Below, piece by piece: positions 1 through 62,487 of a stretch of DNA of 63,961 nt (position 1 is the stretch's first letter; every line of letters starts with the position of its first letter). The translations under genes were made by a program, and so were the position numbers. Origin of the DNA: Actinobacteria bacterium HGW-Actinobacteria-7 (GTDB taxonomy: Bacteria > Actinomycetota > Coriobacteriia > Anaerosomatales > PHET01); the NCBI GenBank assembly GCA_002841275.1, contig PHET01000012.1, positions 1-63,961 on the forward strand. Reading direction: 5' to 3'. The notes below the pieces were generated by a model that made no database searches, was not told where the DNA came from, and worked only from the letters and a program-made list of their open reading frames with translations.

Positions 1-2005
1 CCACACCCGTGTACTCGCCACGTACGATCTCGATCTCGAGTTCGCGCGGGTTGTCGAGGAACTCGTGCAGGGGCGGGTCGAGAAGGCGAACCGTGACCGG
101 CAGGCCGTCCATCGCACCGAAGATCCCCAAGTAATCCTGTGTCTGAACCTTGAGCAACTGTGCGAGCGCATCGTCACGGTCGCTCTGATCGTCTGCGAGG
201 ATGAACTGCTGCAAGATGTCTTTGCGCTCACCGAGGAACATGTGCTCGGTACGGCACAGGCCGATCCCCGCGGCACCGAAATCGCGACCCAGTTGGGCGT
301 CTTCCGGCGTGTCGGCGTTGGCTCGCACCCCCGTGGTGCGGAACTCGTCAGCCCAAGCCAGAATGGTATCGAAGTCGCCTGACACCTCGGGCTCGATGAG
401 TGCGACGGCGCCCACGACCACGATGCCCGTCGTACCGTCGAGCGAGATGATGTCGCCTTCGCTGAGCACGATGTCACTGCCCACGACGGTGGCGCGCTTG
501 GCCTCCGCATCGATCTTCAGCGCGTCGGCACCGCAGACACACGGCTTGCCCATACCTCGGGCGACGACGGCCGCGTGGCTCGTCTTGCCACCGTGCGAAG
601 TGAGAATGCCCTGGGCGGCGACCATTCCGTGCAGGTCGTCCGGGGTAGTCTCCCAGCGGACGAGTATGACCTTGCGACCTTCTTCGGCGGCTTTGACCGC
701 GTCATTGGCCGAGAAGACCACTTCGCCTACTGCAGCACCGGGACTCGCGTTGAGACCCTTCACGAGTACGTCGTAGTCGACCGCCGCATCGAACTGCGGG
801 TGGAGGAGCTGGTCAAGCTGCGCAGGGTCGATTCGCAGCACGGCCTCCTCGCGCGAGATCGTGCCATCGGCGACCATGTCGACGGCGATCTTCAGCGCAG
901 CACGCGCGGTGCGCTTCCCTACCCTGGTCTGCAACATCCAGAGCTTGCCCTGCTCGATGGTGAATTCGATATCACACATGTCGCGATAGTGGCTCTCAAG
1001 AGTCTCGAACACCTGCCAGAGCTCAGCCCCGGCCTCCGGGAGCACTTTGGGCAGGTCCACGAGCGGCTCGGTGACGCGAATACCCGCGACAACGTCCTCC
1101 CCCTGTGCATTGGTCAGGAAGTCTCCGTAGTACTCCTTCGTGCCGTCGGCAGGGTTGCGCGTGAACGCGACGCCTGTCGCCGACGTATCGCCCTTGTTGC
1201 CGAATACCATCGACTGCACGTTGACTGCGGTTCCCAAGTCATCCGGGATGCGCTCCATCTTGCGGTAGATGATCGCGCGATCGTTGTTCCAGCTCTTGAA
1301 GACCGCCTCGATGGCCAGGTGCAGCTGTGCCGCTACGTCTTGGGGAAACGCGACGGTGCCGTCCGCACCAACCAGTGCCGGGAACTCCTGTGCTGATACG
1401 TGCTTGGAGACGATGGCCTTGAACTGGTCAACGAGCTCCTTCATGTCATCGGCGGAAAGATCGGTATCCGACGCAGCGTCACGATCGAAGCGCATCTGCG
1501 TGATAGCGTTCTCGAACAGGTCGCCTTCGAGATCGAGAACCACCTTCGAGAACATCTGGATGAACCTGCGGTAGCTGTCCCATGCGAACCGGTCGTTGCC
1601 GGTCTGGGCGATGAGGCCCTCAATGGACACGTCGTTGAGACCAAGGTTCAAGATAGTATCCATCATCCCCGGCATCGAGAACGGGGAACCCGATCTCACC
1701 GAGACGAGCAGTGGATCGGCGGCGTCTCCGAGCCTTTTGCCCATCTTGGCCTCAAGACCCGTCACATAGCTCGCGATCTCCTCGGCCAAGCCAGGCGGAA
1801 ACGCTGGCGGAGTCGAGTGGTAGTACTCCATGCACGCTTGGCAGGAGATGGTGAACCCTGGGGGAACCGGAAGCCCCATGTTCGCCATCTCGGCCAGGTT
1901 CGCGCCCTTGCCCCCCAGAATGAACTTCATCTCTCTGTTGCCCTCGGTGCGGTTGCTACCGTCGGCTTCTTTGCCGAAGGCATACACACGCTTTACATCC
2001 GACAA
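1..2005 (-). CDS. ppdK: Pyruvate, phosphate dikinase (3' end off the window)
   Basis: This enzyme interconverts pyruvate, ATP and phosphate with phosphoenolpyruvate, AMP and pyrophosphate. It serves glycolysis or gluconeogenesis in the cytoplasm of many anaerobes. About 668 codons are present of a family length near 880, so the C-terminal PEP/pyruvate domain is missing at the left edge. Visible marks are the N-terminal nucleotide-binding part (KFILGGKGANLAEM, SVRSGSPFSMPGMMDTILNLG) and the swivelling domain with the phosphohistidine loop GILTSHGGKTSHAAVVARGMG. I place the start at TTG 2005 (TTG TCG GAT GTA AAG), because the reading frame KRVYAFGKEADGSNRTEGNR continues back to it and GGGAGAGGG lies just upstream. 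It follows its regulator gene by 84 bases in the same direction, so co-transcription with glyQ-glyS-PDRP is likely. Confidence 0.96.
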   Translation of the reverse strand, partial: MSDVKRVYAFGKEADGSNRTEGNREMKFILGGKGANLAEMANMGLPVPPGFTISCQACMEYYHSTPPAFPPGLAEEIASYVTGLEAKMGKRLGDAADPLLVSVRSGSPFSMPGMMDTILNLGLNDVSIEGLIAQTGNDRFAWDSYRRFIQMFSKVVLDLEGDLFENAITQMRFDRDAASDTDLSADDMKELVDQFKAIVSKHVSAQEFPALVGADGTVAFPQDVAAQLHLAIEAVFKSWNNDRAIIYRKMERIPDDLGTAVNVQSMVFGNKGDTSATGVAFTRNPADGTKEYYGDFLTNAQGEDVVAGIRVTEPLVDLPKVLPEAGAELWQVFETLESHYRDMCDIEFTIEQGKLWMLQTRVGKRTARAALKIAVDMVADGTISREEAVLRIDPAQLDQLLHPQFDAAVDYDVLVKGLNASPGAAVGEVVFSANDAVKAAEEGRKVILVRWETTPDDLHGMVAAQGILTSHGGKTSHAAVVARGMGKPCVCGADALKIDAEAKRATVVGSDIVLSEGDIISLDGTTGIVVVGAVALIEPEVSGDFDTILAWADEFRTTGVRANADTPEDAQLGRDFGAAGIGLCRTEHMFLGERKDILQQFILADDQSDRDDALAQLLKVQTQDYLGIFGAMDGLPVTVRLLDPPLHEFLDNPRELEIEIVRGEYTGV

Positions 2006-2089
2006 GTCCCTCTCCCTTACCCTTCGGGAAACCAGCATTCTGCATGATACCGTACCGTGAATCGCGCGGGCGATGCCCACGGGCGACGC

Positions 2090-2908
2090 TCAGTCGTTGG
2101 TCGGAGTCATCCGATAGACATGACGCAAGATCTCCTGAGCAGCCTCTTCGACAGCCCGGTTGTCCGTTCGGACCACCAGACATCCGATGGACCGCATGAG
2201 CGCACGCGCTTCCTCAAGCTCCTTCTCCACCGCTTCGCGATCGGCATACCGTGGAACCCACGTTCCCAGCTCACGCATACGCTCAAGGCGAATATCCATT
2301 AGCACCTCGGCGCTGGTGACAAGTCCGAATACCCGTCGAGGATCGACCTCGAAGAGTTCAGAAGGCGGATCGGTACCTGGGGCGAGCGGAATGTTAGCCA
2401 CGCGCAACCCTTTGAAGGCGAGGAACATCGAGAGCGGTGTCTTGCTCGTCCGTGACACACCGATAAGCACCACATCTGCCTCTTGAAGCCCCTCGGGATT
2501 GCGCCCGTCATCGTGCTTGACGGCGAACTCCATCGCCTCGATTCGCTCGAAGTACTCCTCATCCGTGCGTCGAATGGCTCCAGCTTCGCCGGTGGGCTGG
2601 AGGCCGGTGACCGTGCGCAACAGTGAGACCGAGGGGCTCAGCAGGTCTACCCCGTTGATGCCCTCCTGGCACATCTTCTCCATCTCGGCGCACAGGGCCG
2701 CATCGACCAGCGTGTAGAAGAAGATGCAGTAGCGGCCACAGTGACCCTCGACTTCTGAGCGCAGCTGCTCAGGCGAGGTCACCTTGACCAGACGCTCGAT
2801 ACGGAATGAGTCGGCTTCGAACTGGGCAGCCGCAGCGCGAGCGACCATCTCGCCAGTCTCACCCAGCGAGTCAGAGATCACATGGATCGAGATCGGCGCT
2901 TCGTTCAT
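2090..2908 (-). CDS. PPDK regulatory protein (bifunctional Ser/Thr kinase and phosphorylase, DUF299)
   Basis: Members of this family switch pyruvate phosphate dikinase off by ADP-dependent phosphorylation of the threonine beside its catalytic histidine, and on again by Pi-dependent dephosphorylation. The 272-residue protein has the family's N-terminal ISIHVISDSLGETGEMVA and the P-loop-like GVSRTSKTPLSMFLA near residue 150. The open frame extends further upstream into glyS, but ATG 2908 is the natural start: it lies 4 bases after the glyS stop and the family N-terminus begins there. Its position directly before ppdK supports PPDK rather than PEP synthase as its target. The paralogous PEP-synthase regulator is the only realistic alternative. 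Confidence 0.93.
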   Translation of the reverse strand: MNEAPISIHVISDSLGETGEMVARAAAAQFEADSFRIERLVKVTSPEQLRSEVEGHCGRYCIFFYTLVDAALCAEMEKMCQEGINGVDLLSPSVSLLRTVTGLQPTGEAGAIRRTDEEYFERIEAMEFAVKHDDGRNPEGLQEADVVLIGVSRTSKTPLSMFLAFKGLRVANIPLAPGTDPPSELFEVDPRRVFGLVTSAEVLMDIRLERMRELGTWVPRYADREAVEKELEEARALMRSIGCLVVRTDNRAVEEAAQEILRHVYRMTPTND

Positions 2909-2912
2909 CGCG

Positions 2913-4985
2913 CTACCCTGACAGCTTGCTGAAGTCGGCGAATCCTCCGAACACGGAGACAAACCGGTTGAGTAGCCTCAGCCGATTGTCTCGGAGCTTC
3001 ACGTCAGGATCCATGACCAGCACCGCATCGAAGAACGCATCGATGGGGCCCCTTAGAGCTACCAACGATTCAAGCGCTGCAGAGTAGGCATGCTGCGCCA
3101 TCAGTTCCGTCGCCATCTTCTCGGAAGCATCGAGCGCGTCTGCGAGGGCGAGTTCCTCGGCGGCCATCACCGCACGGTCGAGCACGACCCCAAGCTCCGG
3201 TTTGGCGAGATTCTTCGCTCGGGTGTAGGCCACAGAGAGGTCTTCCATATCGTCACTCGAAGCGCGCAACAACGTGAGTGCCTCGCAGCGGGCCAGTGCA
3301 TCCGCGGGGTCGTCGGCAGACACGGCCAAGATCGCATCGACGGTGTCGTACGCATGTCCTCGGTCGCGAAGAATCGTTTGGAGCCGGGTGAGCAGAAACT
3401 CTTTGATCGCGGCTCCGGTCTCATCAACATCAAACACCACGTGAGACGCGAGCGAAGAGAGCGCCTCGCCGATGAGCGCATCGAGCTTCACGGGCGATCC
3501 GTCGAGTGCCATCTGCAGGATGCCGATGGCGTGCCGGCGTAGCGCGAAGGGGTCGGCAGAGCCTTTTGGCGCCTTGCCTGCGGCGAAGATGCCGCAGATG
3601 GTGTCGGTCTTGTCGGCGATCGAAACCAGCCGGCCCGCCTCGGAGGTCGGCAGTTGATCCCCTGCGAAGCGGGGGCGGTAATGCTCTTCGATGGCGAGCG
3701 CGACCCCGGCCTCCTCGCCACCTGCAAGCGCGTAGTAGCGGCCCATGACGCCCTGCAAGTCGGTGAACTCGACAACTGCATTCGTCACGAGATCGGCCTT
3801 ACACAGATGTGCGGCTCGCTGGCCGAAGGCGGCCTGATCCGCCGAGGTTCCCAGCATCTGGCCCAGCGAGACCACGAGCTGCTCGATCCGCGCGACCTTT
3901 TCGGCCACTGTGCCGAGCTTGGCCTGGAACACGACCGAACCGAGCTTGCCGGCCCACTCTTCGAGCGTCGTCGCAAGGTCCTCCTTGTAGAAGAACGCGG
4001 CATCGGCCAGGCGCGCACGAATGACGCGCTCGTGACCGCGGATGATCTGTTCGGTACGGTCCGCTGCGCCGTTGTGGGCCACGATGAACCGGTTGTCGAG
4101 CATGCCGTCGTCCCGCTGAAGCGGGAAATAGCGCTGGTGTCCGCCCATGGCGTACTCGAGCATCTCCCGCGGAACCTCCAGGAACTGCTCGTCAAAGGTG
4201 CCGACGCCGACCGTCGGCCATTCCACGAGGTTCACGACCTCGGCAAACGTCTTGTCGGGAACCACGGCAGTGCCGTTGTAGCTGTGGGCGGCGGCTTCGA
4301 TGCCCTCGCGGAGCATGCGGGCGCGCTCGTTGTGGTCAACGGCTACGAAGGCGCCGCGAAGCGCATCCGAATACTCGCCGGCATCGCCGATCGCGATCTC
4401 CCCCGGAGCCAGGAAGCGGTGCCCAAAGGTGACTCGGCCGGCCGTCAGGCCCGCGAACTCGACCGGTACGATGTCCGCCCCATGAAGCGCCAGCAACCAC
4501 CGCACGGGGCGAGGGAAGCGCGCTGTACCCGACCCCCACCGCTGGGACTTCGCCCAGTCGAGGTTCTCGGTCAGACGAGCGAGCAGCTCAGGCAGGACAT
4601 TTGCAGCGGGTCCACCGATGGTCTCCACCGTGGCATACACATACGATGCGCCGTTCTCTTCTCGGACTTCCAGCGATTCGACAGCCACGCCTTTGCCTCG
4701 CGCAAAACCCATGGCGGCCTGAGTGGGCTTGCCCTCGGCGTCGAACGCAGCCTTGGCGGCAGGGCCCTTTGCAACCGTCACGGCATCGGCCTGGCTGTCA
4801 GCAAGTTCGCTCACCAGCACGGCGATACGTCGAGGAGTCGCCAGCACAGCGATTTCCCCGTAGCCAAGACGGGTGTCGTCGAGCGCTTTGGGAACCGAGA
4901 CCTGCAACTGCTCGATCGCGCTGTAGACGGCAGACGACGGCAGCTCTTCGGTACCGATCTCGTAGATCAGATCGCGTCCGCTCAC
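2913..4985 (-). CDS. glyS: Glycine--tRNA ligase, beta subunit
   Basis: This is the tRNA-binding subunit of the alpha2-beta2 bacterial glycyl-tRNA synthetase. It is 690 residues, the usual length. It starts with the characteristic [16 protein letters not shown], carries an HD-like central region ([20 protein letters not shown]) and ends with the anticodon-binding DALR-like domain ([19 protein letters not shown]). The start is GTG 4985, overlapping the glyQ stop by four bases (GTGA), which implies translational coupling of the two subunits. The downstream PPDK regulator begins 4 bases after the stop. Confidence 0.97.
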
Positions 4986-56859: not shown

Positions 56860-56935
56860 TGGTGCCCCCTGCAGGACTCGAACCTGCGGCCTTCTGCTCC
56901 GGAGGCAGACGCTCTATCCGCTGAGCTAAGGAGGC
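56860..56935 (-). tRNA. tRNA-Arg (anticodon CCG)
   Basis: The minus strand begins GCCTCCTTAGCTCAGCGGAT. The anticodon arm TCTGC-CTCCGGA-GCAGA puts CCG at 34-36, reading CGG. The T arm contains GGTTCGAGTCC, the acceptor stem GCCTCCT/AGGGGGC pairs with one wobble, and CCA is encoded. A TATGAT hexamer at 56953-56958 is a plausible -10 box. Confidence 0.95.
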
Positions 56936-59048: not shown

Positions 59049-60626
59049 CTAGGGGAGCTTGTCGGCGACCTCGCCCGGGTCCCAGAAGCAGAACGGATAT
59101 GTTCGGTCTGTCAGGATGTCCGAGACCTTCAACTGCCCCTGCAGGTGATCGAGATCCGCCTGATACTCGGCACGAAGCGGTGCCAGAATGGAGCTGAGGG
59201 CGCCGTTGACTTCGCGGATCCGCAAGCCGAGCTGCTTCTTGTCGGCATCAGGTAGCGCGATCGAGGCCACCAGTGCGCGCTTCTCGGTGGCAAGGGCAAC
59301 TGCCTGATCGTGCTCATCGGTGGTATCGAAATCGATCTCGCTGAGCAGGGCGTCGGGATTGTGCTCCAGACGGTTCAGGCGTTCTTTGGCAGCAGCGACC
59401 TCGTCCTCTCCCACCACATGTGCGCCCAAAGGCAGATACATCGTGAGGGAAGCGACGACGAACGACGGAGGCTCCACGCCGAAGTAGCGTCGTATCACTC
59501 CGTCGGTCACCCGGTCATATCGGCCCCCGCCTATTCCATGGATGAACAGATCGCACACGAACATGCGAACGAACATGGTCAACGCAAGGGCCTTCGGCGC
59601 AATCAGAACCTCCTGCTGTGCCAGGCCCTCCACGATTCCAGATGGGTCCGCAGGAAGCTCGATCACGACCCCCGAATCCGACAGCAGCTTCAACCGACCA
59701 TCAGCCACCGCTCTGACCCACAGCGTGGATCGAATGCCATCGGCGATAAGCCAGAAGGGCAGCTCGGTGTCGCCGTCCCGCGACTTCAGATCCGGTACCG
59801 GCTGAGCTGCTGAGCGCGTCTTGGTAAACGCACGGTACTCGTGTAGTTCAGAGTTGTACGCCTGAGCAAAAGCACTCGCATCGAGAGCAAGTTGCGCCAC
59901 AAACCGCCGGAATGCGCTCGTCTGAGCGAGACCGGTCATGGGCGCCTCAAGATAGCCCGTGCCCGCGCTGGATTCGTAGCGTCTGCGGGCGATCGTCACC
60001 AGTTCCGCGATGTTGTTGGCATCAGCCATGGCGCGCTTGAGGTGGCCGCAGAACACCGAGAAGTGCCGGCGCACTGCAGGCGCGGGCAGAGTCGCCAGCA
60101 TCTCATCGGCAGACCGACAGAAGTCATCGACGTCTCGAACCGAAGGAACGGGAGTCGAGGCGAAACAGGAACCGGGAGCGCCCACCGCCAGATACTGCCT
60201 ACAGCGATCCATGCCGGATGTCATGCAGGGCGACGTGACGGCGACCGTATCGAATCCATCGGTATCCACAACGACATCAAGTGCGGTCGCGCCGGACTGC
60301 GACGCAATCCGATCGAGCAGGAAGTCCTTGACCCACACGCCGGGATGGTAGATCTCAGGCTGATGTCCTGTTGCGACTATCGGTTCATCCGAAGGTCCCG
60401 CCGCCCGCAGGTCGACCCCAAGCTTCGCCGAGAAGCCCTCGGCAACGTGTATCGCTTCAGCGCGTGCGACTCTGCGAACAGCGCCAACGGGCATGCCCCC
60501 CACCATGAATGTCCATGACGACATCATCGCCCGATTGGAGGTCAGGAGAGCCTCCCATTCCGCCAGATCGGGCCTGACGGTGAGTTCTCCGTGGCCTGAC
60601 GGTAGCATGGGGCGAGAGTGGACCAC
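59049..60626 (-). CDS. BshC-like protein (putative cysteine-adding enzyme family)
   Basis: I recognise this 525-residue protein only distantly. ATGHQPEIYHPGVWVKDFLL (around residue 85) resembles the TGQQxGLxxGPxYTxYKA start of the BshC core, DTDGFDTV the later EDHDFEE-like block, and FIHGIGGGRYDRVTDGVIRR with FGVEPP the GGPxEIAY region. A helical, probably coiled-coil part near 430-505 also fits BshC. BshC adds cysteine to glucosaminyl-malate to make bacillithiol. The start is GTG 60626 with TAGGAGG five bases upstream. It follows a BshB-like deacetylase by 8 bases. The closing RTYPFCFWDPGEV contains a cysteine of unknown importance. A different amide or thiol product is equally possible. Confidence 0.5.
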   Translation of the reverse strand: MVHSRPMLPSGHGELTVRPDLAEWEALLTSNRAMMSSWTFMVGGMPVGAVRRVARAEAIHVAEGFSAKLGVDLRAAGPSDEPIVATGHQPEIYHPGVWVKDFLLDRIASQSGATALDVVVDTDGFDTVAVTSPCMTSGMDRCRQYLAVGAPGSCFASTPVPSVRDVDDFCRSADEMLATLPAPAVRRHFSVFCGHLKRAMADANNIAELVTIARRRYESSAGTGYLEAPMTGLAQTSAFRRFVAQLALDASAFAQAYNSELHEYRAFTKTRSAAQPVPDLKSRDGDTELPFWLIADGIRSTLWVRAVADGRLKLLSDSGVVIELPADPSGIVEGLAQQEVLIAPKALALTMFVRMFVCDLFIHGIGGGRYDRVTDGVIRRYFGVEPPSFVVASLTMYLPLGAHVVGEDEVAAAKERLNRLEHNPDALLSEIDFDTTDEHDQAVALATEKRALVASIALPDADKKQLGLRIREVNGALSSILAPLRAEYQADLDHLQGQLKVSDILTDRTYPFCFWDPGEVADKLP

Positions 60627-60634
60627 AGGGCCTC

Positions 60635-61330
60635 CTAGAGGATATCTGAGGGGCTGGAAAGCGCGACTGGCTCAAGTGCGAAGAACGGCTCGCCGGCCTC
60701 CACATTGGCAAGCGAGCCCCACATGTGAGCAGTCGCCTCCATCATCGGGATGATTCCCGCATTCTTCTCATTGCTGAGGAACTGCGACTCGTATGCCGCA
60801 AGCGCAGTGAGCTTGGTCTGCAAGTCCAGCGAGACGTCAACAACAAACGAGGGTTCCGCCACGATCCGCTGGTGCACGGCCATATACCTGAAGACGCGCG
60901 GTACGTAGAACGGTTGATGAGCCATCTCGGTCTTCGTCAGCTTGCCGTAGAAGCGTGCAGCCAAAGCGATCTGGGCCGCTGCCACGTGATCAGGATGCGC
61001 ATCCGACGGATACGGCATGAACAGCATTCGTGGCCTGAACTCTCGAAGTACCTCGGCCAGCTCGAATCGGGCCTCGACTGTGTCGAACAGGAATCTGTTC
61101 GGCTGAGTCAGAGTCGTGCGACTCGCGCCCAGGATCCCCGCCGCAGACGCAGACTCCTTCGCACGCGTTTCCGGTGAGCCGTACGGTGTCGGCTCACCGT
61201 TGGTGAGATCGACGATCGCGACCTTCTTGCCGGCGCGCGTCATGCCGGCGATCGTTGCGCCCATTCCAATCTCAACGTCATCAGGATGCGCACCTACACA
61301 GACCGCATCGTAGAATGTCGCCTCACTCAT
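60635..61330 (-). CDS. PIG-L/LmbE-family deacetylase, BshB-like
   Basis: This zinc-dependent N-deacetylase family removes acetyl from GlcNAc conjugates in bacillithiol, mycothiol and GPI pathways. From ATG 61330 it has 231 residues. The zinc motif AHPDDVEIG is at 14-22, followed by DLTNGEPTPYGSPETRAKES, and PYPSDAHPDHVAAAQIAL supplies the second metal histidine and catalytic residues. ATG overlaps the stop of the glycosyltransferase gene by four bases. BshB1-type proteins have the same N-terminal layout. Neighbouring BshC-like and OsmC genes suggest a thiol or amino-sugar conjugate as product. Confidence 0.85.
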   Translation of the reverse strand: MSEATFYDAVCVGAHPDDVEIGMGATIAGMTRAGKKVAIVDLTNGEPTPYGSPETRAKESASAAGILGASRTTLTQPNRFLFDTVEARFELAEVLREFRPRMLFMPYPSDAHPDHVAAAQIALAARFYGKLTKTEMAHQPFYVPRVFRYMAVHQRIVAEPSFVVDVSLDLQTKLTALAAYESQFLSNEKNAGIIPMMEATAHMWGSLANVEAGEPFFALEPVALSSPSDIL

Positions 61331-62022
61331 CTGCTCTCCAATGCCTTGCGCCAGACTTCCATGTAGTAGGCATAGCGCTTCTCCGGATCGTCCAGGGCAA
61401 CTCCAAACGACCGGTCGCGGTCGCAGTAGATGCGTTCGACCGCGATCTCCTCCACCTTCAGTCCGTGGTGCCACGCGCGGGCCCACAACTCCAACGGCAT
61501 CGCGTAGCCGGATTCAGTGAGGCTGAGGCCCGCTAGGGCTTGAAGCCGATATGCCTTAAAACCGCAGAACGCGTCGGTGAGCGACCAGCCGGTCACACGG
61601 TTGATCTCCTCGGTGATCCGCGCATTGATCTCCTGACGATCGGCGGGCGCGGTTCCAACCGTGCCGCTCGCAGGAAGGTACCGACTGCCCGACACGATGT
61701 CCGTGCCCCCTTGTACTCCGGCCAGAAACTCCGGAATATGCGCAGGCTCGTGCTGGCCGTCGCAGTCCATGGTCACAACGTGGCTGACACCCAGCTCGCG
61801 AGCGACATCGAACCCGATACGAAGCGCACACCCGTAGCCGCAGTTGTGGTCCAAGTGCACCACGGCAACGTCGTTGCGCTGCGCAAGCACCATCGGTGTC
61901 TTGTCAGTAGAACCGTCGTCGATGACGACGATCTCGCCCGAGAAGTGCTCACGTACGGCGTCGAGTACGCAGCCGACTGTGTCCGCCTCGTTGTAGACGG
62001 GCATCAAGACGCATGAGGACAC
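61327..62022 (-). CDS. Family 2 glycosyltransferase, DPM1-like
   Basis: This is a soluble 231-residue GT-A glycosyltransferase. It begins with VLMPVYNEADTVGCVLDAV and contains EIVVIDDGSTDKTP, VVTMDCDGQHEPAHIPEFLA (metal-binding acidic cluster) and TDIVSGSRYLP. There are no C-terminal membrane helices, as in the simplest dolichol- or polyprenyl-phosphate sugar transferases. Its start, GTG 62022, lies 3 bases after the osmC stop and its end overlaps the deacetylase gene by four bases. In bacillithiol producers the first step uses a GT4 enzyme (BshA), so this GT2 implies a different acceptor or an unrelated role. Confidence 0.86.
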   Translation of the reverse strand: MSSCVLMPVYNEADTVGCVLDAVREHFSGEIVVIDDGSTDKTPMVLAQRNDVAVVHLDHNCGYGCALRIGFDVARELGVSHVVTMDCDGQHEPAHIPEFLAGVQGGTDIVSGSRYLPASGTVGTAPADRQEINARITEEINRVTGWSLTDAFCGFKAYRLQALAGLSLTESGYAMPLELWARAWHHGLKVEEIAVERIYCDRDRSFGVALDDPEKRYAYYMEVWRKALESR

Positions 62023-62025
62023 GTG

Positions 62026-62487
62026 CTACTCGCTCTCCCCGGACTGGACTGAGCTACCGGGAGCAGGCGCTTCAACCACGCTGAAGGTCGTCTCGACCTC
62101 CACTTGGGGGCCGAACATTCCCTTCACCGAGCAGTACTTCTCCTCAGAGAGTTCAATCGCGCGCTTCACCGCATCGGGCTTGACACCGTAGCCGGTGACA
62201 ATGAACTCCACCGTGATCCGGTCATATATCTTGGGATACTCCTCCGTGCGTTGCCTGCCGTGAACGACGATCTCCAACCCGCGGATGTCCTGGCGCTTCT
62301 TCTCAAGGATGGAAATGACATCCATCCCCGTGCATCCAGCCAGCCCGTGCAACACGAGTTCGACCGGGCGGATACCCGAACCGTCTCCCTTGTACTCAGC
62401 TTTTGCGTCCATCATCACACTGTGACCGGCTTCATCCGTGCCCAGAAACCCGCGCTTGCCGGTCCATTTGATACGAGCGACGTCCAT
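62026..62487 (-). CDS. OsmC/Ohr-family thiol peroxidase-like protein
   Basis: OsmC-family proteins reduce organic hydroperoxides through two cysteines. From ATG 62487 (AAGGAGGGG six bases upstream) it has 153 residues. The two active-site cysteines are in GLAGCTGMDVISIL and EEKYCSVKGMFG. The basic residue that activates the peroxidatic cysteine could be supplied by the N-terminal region. The frame extends upstream for 45 codons into the pilT 3' end without similarity. It heads the set osmC - GT2 - deacetylase - BshC-like. Confidence 0.9.
   Translation of the reverse strand: MDVARIKWTGKRGFLGTDEAGHSVMMDAKAEYKGDGSGIRPVELVLHGLAGCTGMDVISILEKKRQDIRGLEIVVHGRQRTEEYPKIYDRITVEFIVTGYGVKPDAVKRAIELSEEKYCSVKGMFGPQVEVETTFSVVEAPAPGSSVQSGESE

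Follow-up and report, generated by a model that had tools for sequence, protein, structure and literature searches.

The 63,961-nucleotide window analysed here (contig PHET01000012.1 of Actinobacteria bacterium HGW-Actinobacteria-7) contains a compact operon that includes a soluble GT2 glycosyltransferase, a PIG-L zinc deacetylase of the BshB1 type, and a 525-residue protein that is a remote homologue of the bacillithiol enzyme BshC. We argue that these three genes form one functional unit that crosses phylum boundaries, and we think it probable that their products carry out three successive steps that yield an amino-acyl glucosamine conjugate. This would most likely be a bacillithiol-type thiol of low molecular weight in which cysteine is joined to glucosamine. 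The unit would work like the bacillithiol pathway and is apparently undescribed. We do not assign it to that pathway, because the BshA and BshC profiles that define membership were tested and did not recognize its proteins.

Sequence searches with the 525-residue protein and the relatives tested (phmmer and profile) returned no match in Pfam, NCBIfam, or the Protein Data Bank (PDB) beyond coiled-coil noise at most, and the BshC profile PF10079 found nothing in its own genome or among 33 scanned relatives of the protein. An AlphaFold2 model built from an alignment of 33 members of the Anaerosomatales-type order (mean predicted local distance difference test score (pLDDT) 93.1, predicted template modelling score 0.87) had Bacillus subtilis BshC (4wbd) as its top Foldseek match (E 4e-13). 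VIA alignment of the two gave a Z score of 26.9 with 455 of 540 residues aligned at a root-mean-square deviation of 5.8. The match extends over the entire chain, C-terminal helices included, and the model shows the Rossmann core, connecting-peptide insertions, and C-terminal helical domain of the overall BshC fold. The next best match by VIA was class I lysyl-tRNA synthetase (Z 19.8). The mycothiol ligase MshC was among the structural matches (Z 10.5); it lies far below BshC, and we rejected an MshC-type identity on this ground.

Profile–profile comparison points the same way. We compared a profile of some 70 members of the family with one of 25 genuine Bacillota BshC sequences by hhalign and obtained a score of 61.4 (P 1.2e-6). 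None of 20 column-shuffled and two reversed controls exceeded 27.5, and none of seven unrelated families exceeded 21.1. Altered counterparts of the BshC motifs occur at the corresponding places: TGQQxGLxTGPLY is matched by TGHQPxLxHPGVWxK, EDHD by VDxD, and GxGExxY by HGxGGxxYD. The 525-residue protein is thus a remote BshC homologue that lies outside the BshC family as PF10079 defines it. An earlier note on this DNA had called it distantly BshC-like and proposed both comparisons; it was right as to fold, although no sequence library detects the protein, and the lack of structural similarity that it named as grounds for dropping the idea did not emerge. We propose that the protein is an amino acid ligase with cysteine as its probable substrate. 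Cysteine is favoured because the best analogues, BshC and MshC, use it and because the genomes concerned have no classical BshA/BshC pair.

The deacetylase scores 182.7 bits on the BshB1 equivalog model TIGR04001, a borderline pass of the 182.5-bit cut-off that agrees with the earlier note's BshB-like label. On the MshB model it reaches only 47 bits against a cut-off of 224. Its PDB matches are 1uan, 6p2t (N-acetylglucosamine (GlcNAc)-malate deacetylase 1), and 2ixd, and orthologues across the order keep the zinc motifs AHPDD (39/40) and HPDH (40/40). Of 32 distant genomes, 28 encode a BshB1 above the TIGR04001 cut-off, frequently at another place in the chromosome, as do 52 of 99 relatives.

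The glycosyltransferase is the GT2/DPM1-like enzyme that the earlier note had described in place of a GT4 BshA. Its AlphaFold2 model (pLDDT 95.6) is closest in fold to DPMS (Z 25.6), followed by ArnC (23.1), GpgS (21.4), and MpgS/MgS (18–20), and hydropathy analysis found no transmembrane segment. A C-terminal tail, IYxxxxRxFxxxLDDPxxRxxYY, is common to the whole orthologue group and specific to it; the PDB sequence match to DPMS stops upstream of this motif, at residue 183. GpgS and MgS act on 3-phosphoglycerate or glycerate, which sets a precedent for glycosylation of a small hydroxy acid by a soluble GT-A glycosyltransferase. The match of the window protein to the GpgS profile model is weak (26 bits). 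The acceptor of BshA is malate (PMC4360819).

To follow the genes beyond the window, we scanned GTDB species genomes and recovered at least 559 relatives of the 525-residue protein, hereafter BshC-like. Within the class Coriobacteriia, to which the order belongs, the BshC-like gene occurs in 65 of 69 genomes of the order and in 0 of 30 other members. Forty loci of the order share the arrangement PilT-OsmC-GT2-PIG-L-BshC-like, followed by PlsY-DagK-EF-G on the opposite strand, unbroken except at contig ends. The best 41 loci outside the order lack the PilT/EF-G context. GT2, PIG-L, and BshC-like genes are nevertheless contiguous in 19 of them (Bacillota, Armatimonadota, Nitrospinota, Nitrospirae, and ANGP1), GT2 and BshC-like genes are adjacent in 11, mostly in Planctomycetes such as Blastopirellula marina, and the BshC-like gene stands alone in 11 (Scalindua and some Nitrospinota). 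In Planctomycetota the trio is partly dispersed.

The partners also co-occur when unlinked. With the GT2 orthologue group delimited by co-occurrence with the BshC-like gene, an orthologue (E ≤ 1e-30) was found in all 19 genomes carrying that gene, 10 of them unlinked, and in 0 of 40 genomes without it (best match E 1.9e-23). Each of the 10 unlinked genomes searched held exactly one strong GT2 orthologue. BshB1-type PIG-L genes (E ≤ 1e-20) show the same pattern within the class: of 65 genomes that have the BshC-like gene, 64 encode one, and none of the 34 that lack it does. Recurrence in separate phyla, together with retention despite dispersal, argues for a three-gene functional unit. The arrangement is not due to chance: the four-gene order recurs in all 40 loci of the order that were examined, contig ends aside, and three of the genes recur together in other phyla without further shared synteny. 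The second outcome that the earlier note had set as a refutation, a neighbourhood survey in which the genes are scattered, did not arise.

The classical enzymes are largely missing where this unit occurs. Using TIGR03999 (GT4; cut-off 273.7 bits) as the criterion for BshA, we found none above cut-off in 99 relatives and one in 32 distant genomes, with a best score of 122 bits in the window's own genome; the absence of BshA in the earlier note's interpretation is thus supported. None of 39 distant genomes had a classical BshC (PF10079) above cut-off. Among 149 sampled Bacillota genomes, PF10079 occurs in 39 and the BshC-like family in 4, with no overlap; this mutual exclusion (0/4 with the gene versus 39/145 without it) has the expected direction and is not significant (Fisher p 0.57).

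From these data we propose the following pathway. The soluble GT2 would use UDP-GlcNAc as donor and attach GlcNAc to the hydroxyl of a small acceptor, probably an organic acid. PIG-L deacetylation, a step well supported by its family, would then expose the sugar amine. The BshC-fold protein, judging from its fold, may finally join this amine to an amino acid carboxyl as an amide, the amino acid probably being cysteine. In this scheme a glycosyltransferase of unrelated fold would take the place of BshA, and that of BshC would be filled by a homologue so divergent that sequence libraries miss it. More tentatively, and with less than even confidence, we suggest that the trio makes an undescribed thiol distinct from both bacillithiol and mycothiol, and that Anaerosomatales, Planctomycetes (including the anammox genus Scalindua), Nitrospinota, and several Terrabacteria lineages have it as their main thiol.

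Several observations weigh against a cysteinyl thiol made by this trio. The BshC-like family has no invariant cysteine, and we identified no cysteine-specific residue or feature in it; BshC itself, to which ligation of cysteine to GlcN-malate is ascribed, had as of 2015 neither a recorded in vitro activity nor a known mechanism of cysteine ligation (PMC4360819). The structural proximity of the GT2 to polyprenyl-phosphate sugar synthases makes a lipid acceptor possible. Of 30 genomes with the BshC-like gene, just one has bacilliredoxin (PF06491), although we consider this protein uninformative as a marker because only 3 of 8 sampled genomes with classical BshC have it. One non-order genome has GT2 and BshC-like genes and a weak PIG-L match (63.7 bits; locus L112, genome G099). 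Finally, genomes within groups are related, so that the co-occurrence counts are not independent events and the Fisher values are indicative only.

Two of these genomes deserve separate mention. L112 (positions 1081–3459) comes from a genome deposited as Slackia heliotrinireducens; its taxon label may be wrong, or its deacetylase may have been replaced. In the ANGP1 genome that holds locus L114 (G100), a bacilliredoxin of the PF06491 family lies at C2:10361–10768; the cassette is present there and no classical BshC was found.

An alternative product would be no thiol at all: the GT2 would make a polyprenyl-phosphate-GlcNAc or a glycolipid, PIG-L would deacetylate it as in glycosylphosphatidylinositol synthesis, and the BshC-fold enzyme would add another amino acid. 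The closest solved structures, DPMS and ArnC, favour this reading, as do the breadth of GlcNAc conjugates on which PIG-L enzymes act and the missing cysteine-specific feature. It sits poorly with a glycosyltransferase that lacks a transmembrane segment and carries its own C-terminal motif beyond the reach of the DPMS match, and with a deacetylase that scores as BshB1 and not as a generic PIG-L protein; we regard it as rather unlikely. Synthases of the DPMS/ArnC/GtrB kind are GT2 enzymes whose tail binds polyprenyl phosphate, and many of them are anchored in the membrane.

Bacillithiol itself, a special case of the thiol pathway proposed above, would be the product if the GT2 were a non-orthologous replacement of BshA making GlcNAc-malate and the 525-residue protein a very divergent BshC. 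A deacetylase at or above the BshB1 cut-off in most genomes suggests a GlcNAc-malate-like substrate, and the ligase does have the BshC fold; yet the TGQQxGLxTGPLY and EDHD motifs of classical BshC are missing from it, PF10079 does not recognize it, and bacilliredoxin is nearly absent. Moreover, an inverting GT2 would yield a different anomer from the retaining GT4 BshA, unless the cassette enzyme is a retaining one like GpgS (GT81). On balance we judge bacillithiol itself an unlikely product. That the genes are mere neighbours through frozen gene order from PilT to EF-G is very improbable and we discarded it: synteny within the order extends equally to the flanking PilT, PlsY, DagK, and EF-G genes, but the trio recurs in other phyla without PilT/EF-G flanks and its genes co-occur when unlinked and are absent together.

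The cysteinyl-glucosamine pathway that we favour shares with BshA-BshB-BshC of B. subtilis and Staphylococcus aureus a glycosyltransferase, a BshB1-type deacetylase at equivalog level, and a BshC-fold ligase. It differs in that its glycosyltransferase is a GT-A enzyme of GT2 and not GT4 BshA, that its ligase, about 10% identical to BshC and with changed signature motifs, escapes PF10079, and that its genes often form one compact operon. The mycothiol pathway MshA-B-C-D follows the same scheme, in which GlcNAc is transferred and deacetylated and an enzyme of the class I aminoacyl-tRNA synthetase fold then ligates cysteine, and, by analogy only, a GNAT gene in some Planctomycete loci recalls MshD. 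In contrast, the cassette glycosyltransferase is a GT2 enzyme, the MshB model does not capture the cassette deacetylase, and the cassette ligase is much nearer to BshC than to MshC. GpgS, MpgS, and MgS, whose acceptors are small hydroxy acids, resemble the cassette GT2 in being soluble GT-A enzymes (Z 18–21 to our model), and differ from it in that sequence similarity is weak.

In a 2018 survey, Planctomycetes were among the lineages for which a low-molecular-weight thiol had been neither documented nor predicted (PMC6282198). A 2025 survey of bacillithiol and N-methyl-bacillithiol relied on BLAST with classical BshA-C and required all three genes (PMC12719100), and would therefore not count a GT2/BshB1/BshC-like set. 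Among the papers that we could search, none was found that describes a BshC-like family of this kind. Cultured members of the order exist (PMC9686372), so the thiol can be sought directly, and the gene set supplies named genes and cultured organisms for such a search in lineages that had no thiol on record. The set suggests that bacillithiol-type chemistry is reached in a second way, by a compact pathway with an unrelated glycosyltransferase, and the distant ligase homologue may help to solve the open mechanism of BshC.

The operon opens with an OsmC superfamily gene, which the earlier note had read as a pathway peroxidase in need of a thiol. The protein has the OsmC domain and, in most orthologues, the motifs GCT(G/A)MD and KYCSV, with the two catalytic cysteines expected of the superfamily; it is closest to Escherichia coli YhfA, with a match to NF008009/PRK10738 below cut-off. 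The role of the YhfA class is uninvestigated, and Ohr/OsmC proteins are reportedly re-reduced by lipoylated proteins, not by glutathione or thioredoxin systems (PMC8945050). The gene is confined to the order: none of the 41 non-order loci has it within the stretch that was fetched, and at locus L099 it is missing between PilT and GT2. On these grounds we rejected OsmC as a pathway member and do not retain the peroxidase role: it is probably an order-specific local passenger and offers no evidence for a thiol. Of the four genes that were expected to travel together, GT2, PIG-L, and BshC-like do so in several phyla, linked or not, and OsmC does not.

The tight packing reported for the four genes was borne out by their coordinates (Table 1), with gaps of 3 bp between OsmC and GT2 and 8 bp between PIG-L and the 525-residue gene, and a 4-bp overlap between GT2 and PIG-L. 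Pfam scores were 61 bits for OsmC (PF02566), 86 for GT2 (PF00535), and 86 for PIG-L (PF02585).

Table 1. Coordinates of the operon genes and of neighbouring genes in the window (first five rows) and at Planctomycete loci (last four rows)
Feature	Position	Strand	Basis
OsmC superfamily protein, YhfA type, 153 aa	62026-62487	minus	PF02566; best PDB match 1ml8
Soluble GT2 glycosyltransferase, 231 aa, DxD (DCD) motif	61327-62022	minus	PF00535
PIG-L / BshB1-type zinc deacetylase, 231 aa	60635-61330	minus	TIGR04001, PF02585, zinc motifs
BshC-fold protein, 525 aa, GTG start	59049-60626	minus	AlphaFold2 fold match and hhalign; no Pfam/NCBIfam family
4Fe-4S dicluster ferredoxin, 58 aa	58725-58901	minus	PF00037 and PF13237
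GNAT acetyltransferase-like gene after BshC-like	L157:9590-10960		
GNAT acetyltransferase-like gene after BshC-like	L150:9647-11056		
GNAT acetyltransferase-like gene after BshC-like	L151:9728-11008		
GNAT acetyltransferase-like gene after BshC-like	L153:9639-11081		

The ferredoxin gene lies downstream of the 525-residue gene on the same strand, and several relatives have it in the same place. Five Planctomycete loci have a GNAT-like gene after the BshC-like gene, in several of them immediately after it. Among the four GNAT-like genes scanned, PF13527 recognizes three clearly and the other weakly, and SCP2 matches one. An N-acetylation step is a possible role for the GNAT-like gene. In three Bacillota loci, a gene that by eye resembles methylthioadenosine phosphorylase lies downstream of the BshC-like gene (L116:5787–6698, and also at L134 and L143).

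Elsewhere in the window, a tRNA-Arg (CCG) gene lies at 56860–56935 on the minus strand, between the EF-G-like and diacylglycerol kinase-like genes. At the contig end (63700–63961), a plus-strand frame resembling the NuoL C-terminus (LVYNKFYVDEIYGFLL) abuts the low-complexity start of pilT; this 84-residue piece has no Pfam match, and the contig end is possibly chimeric.

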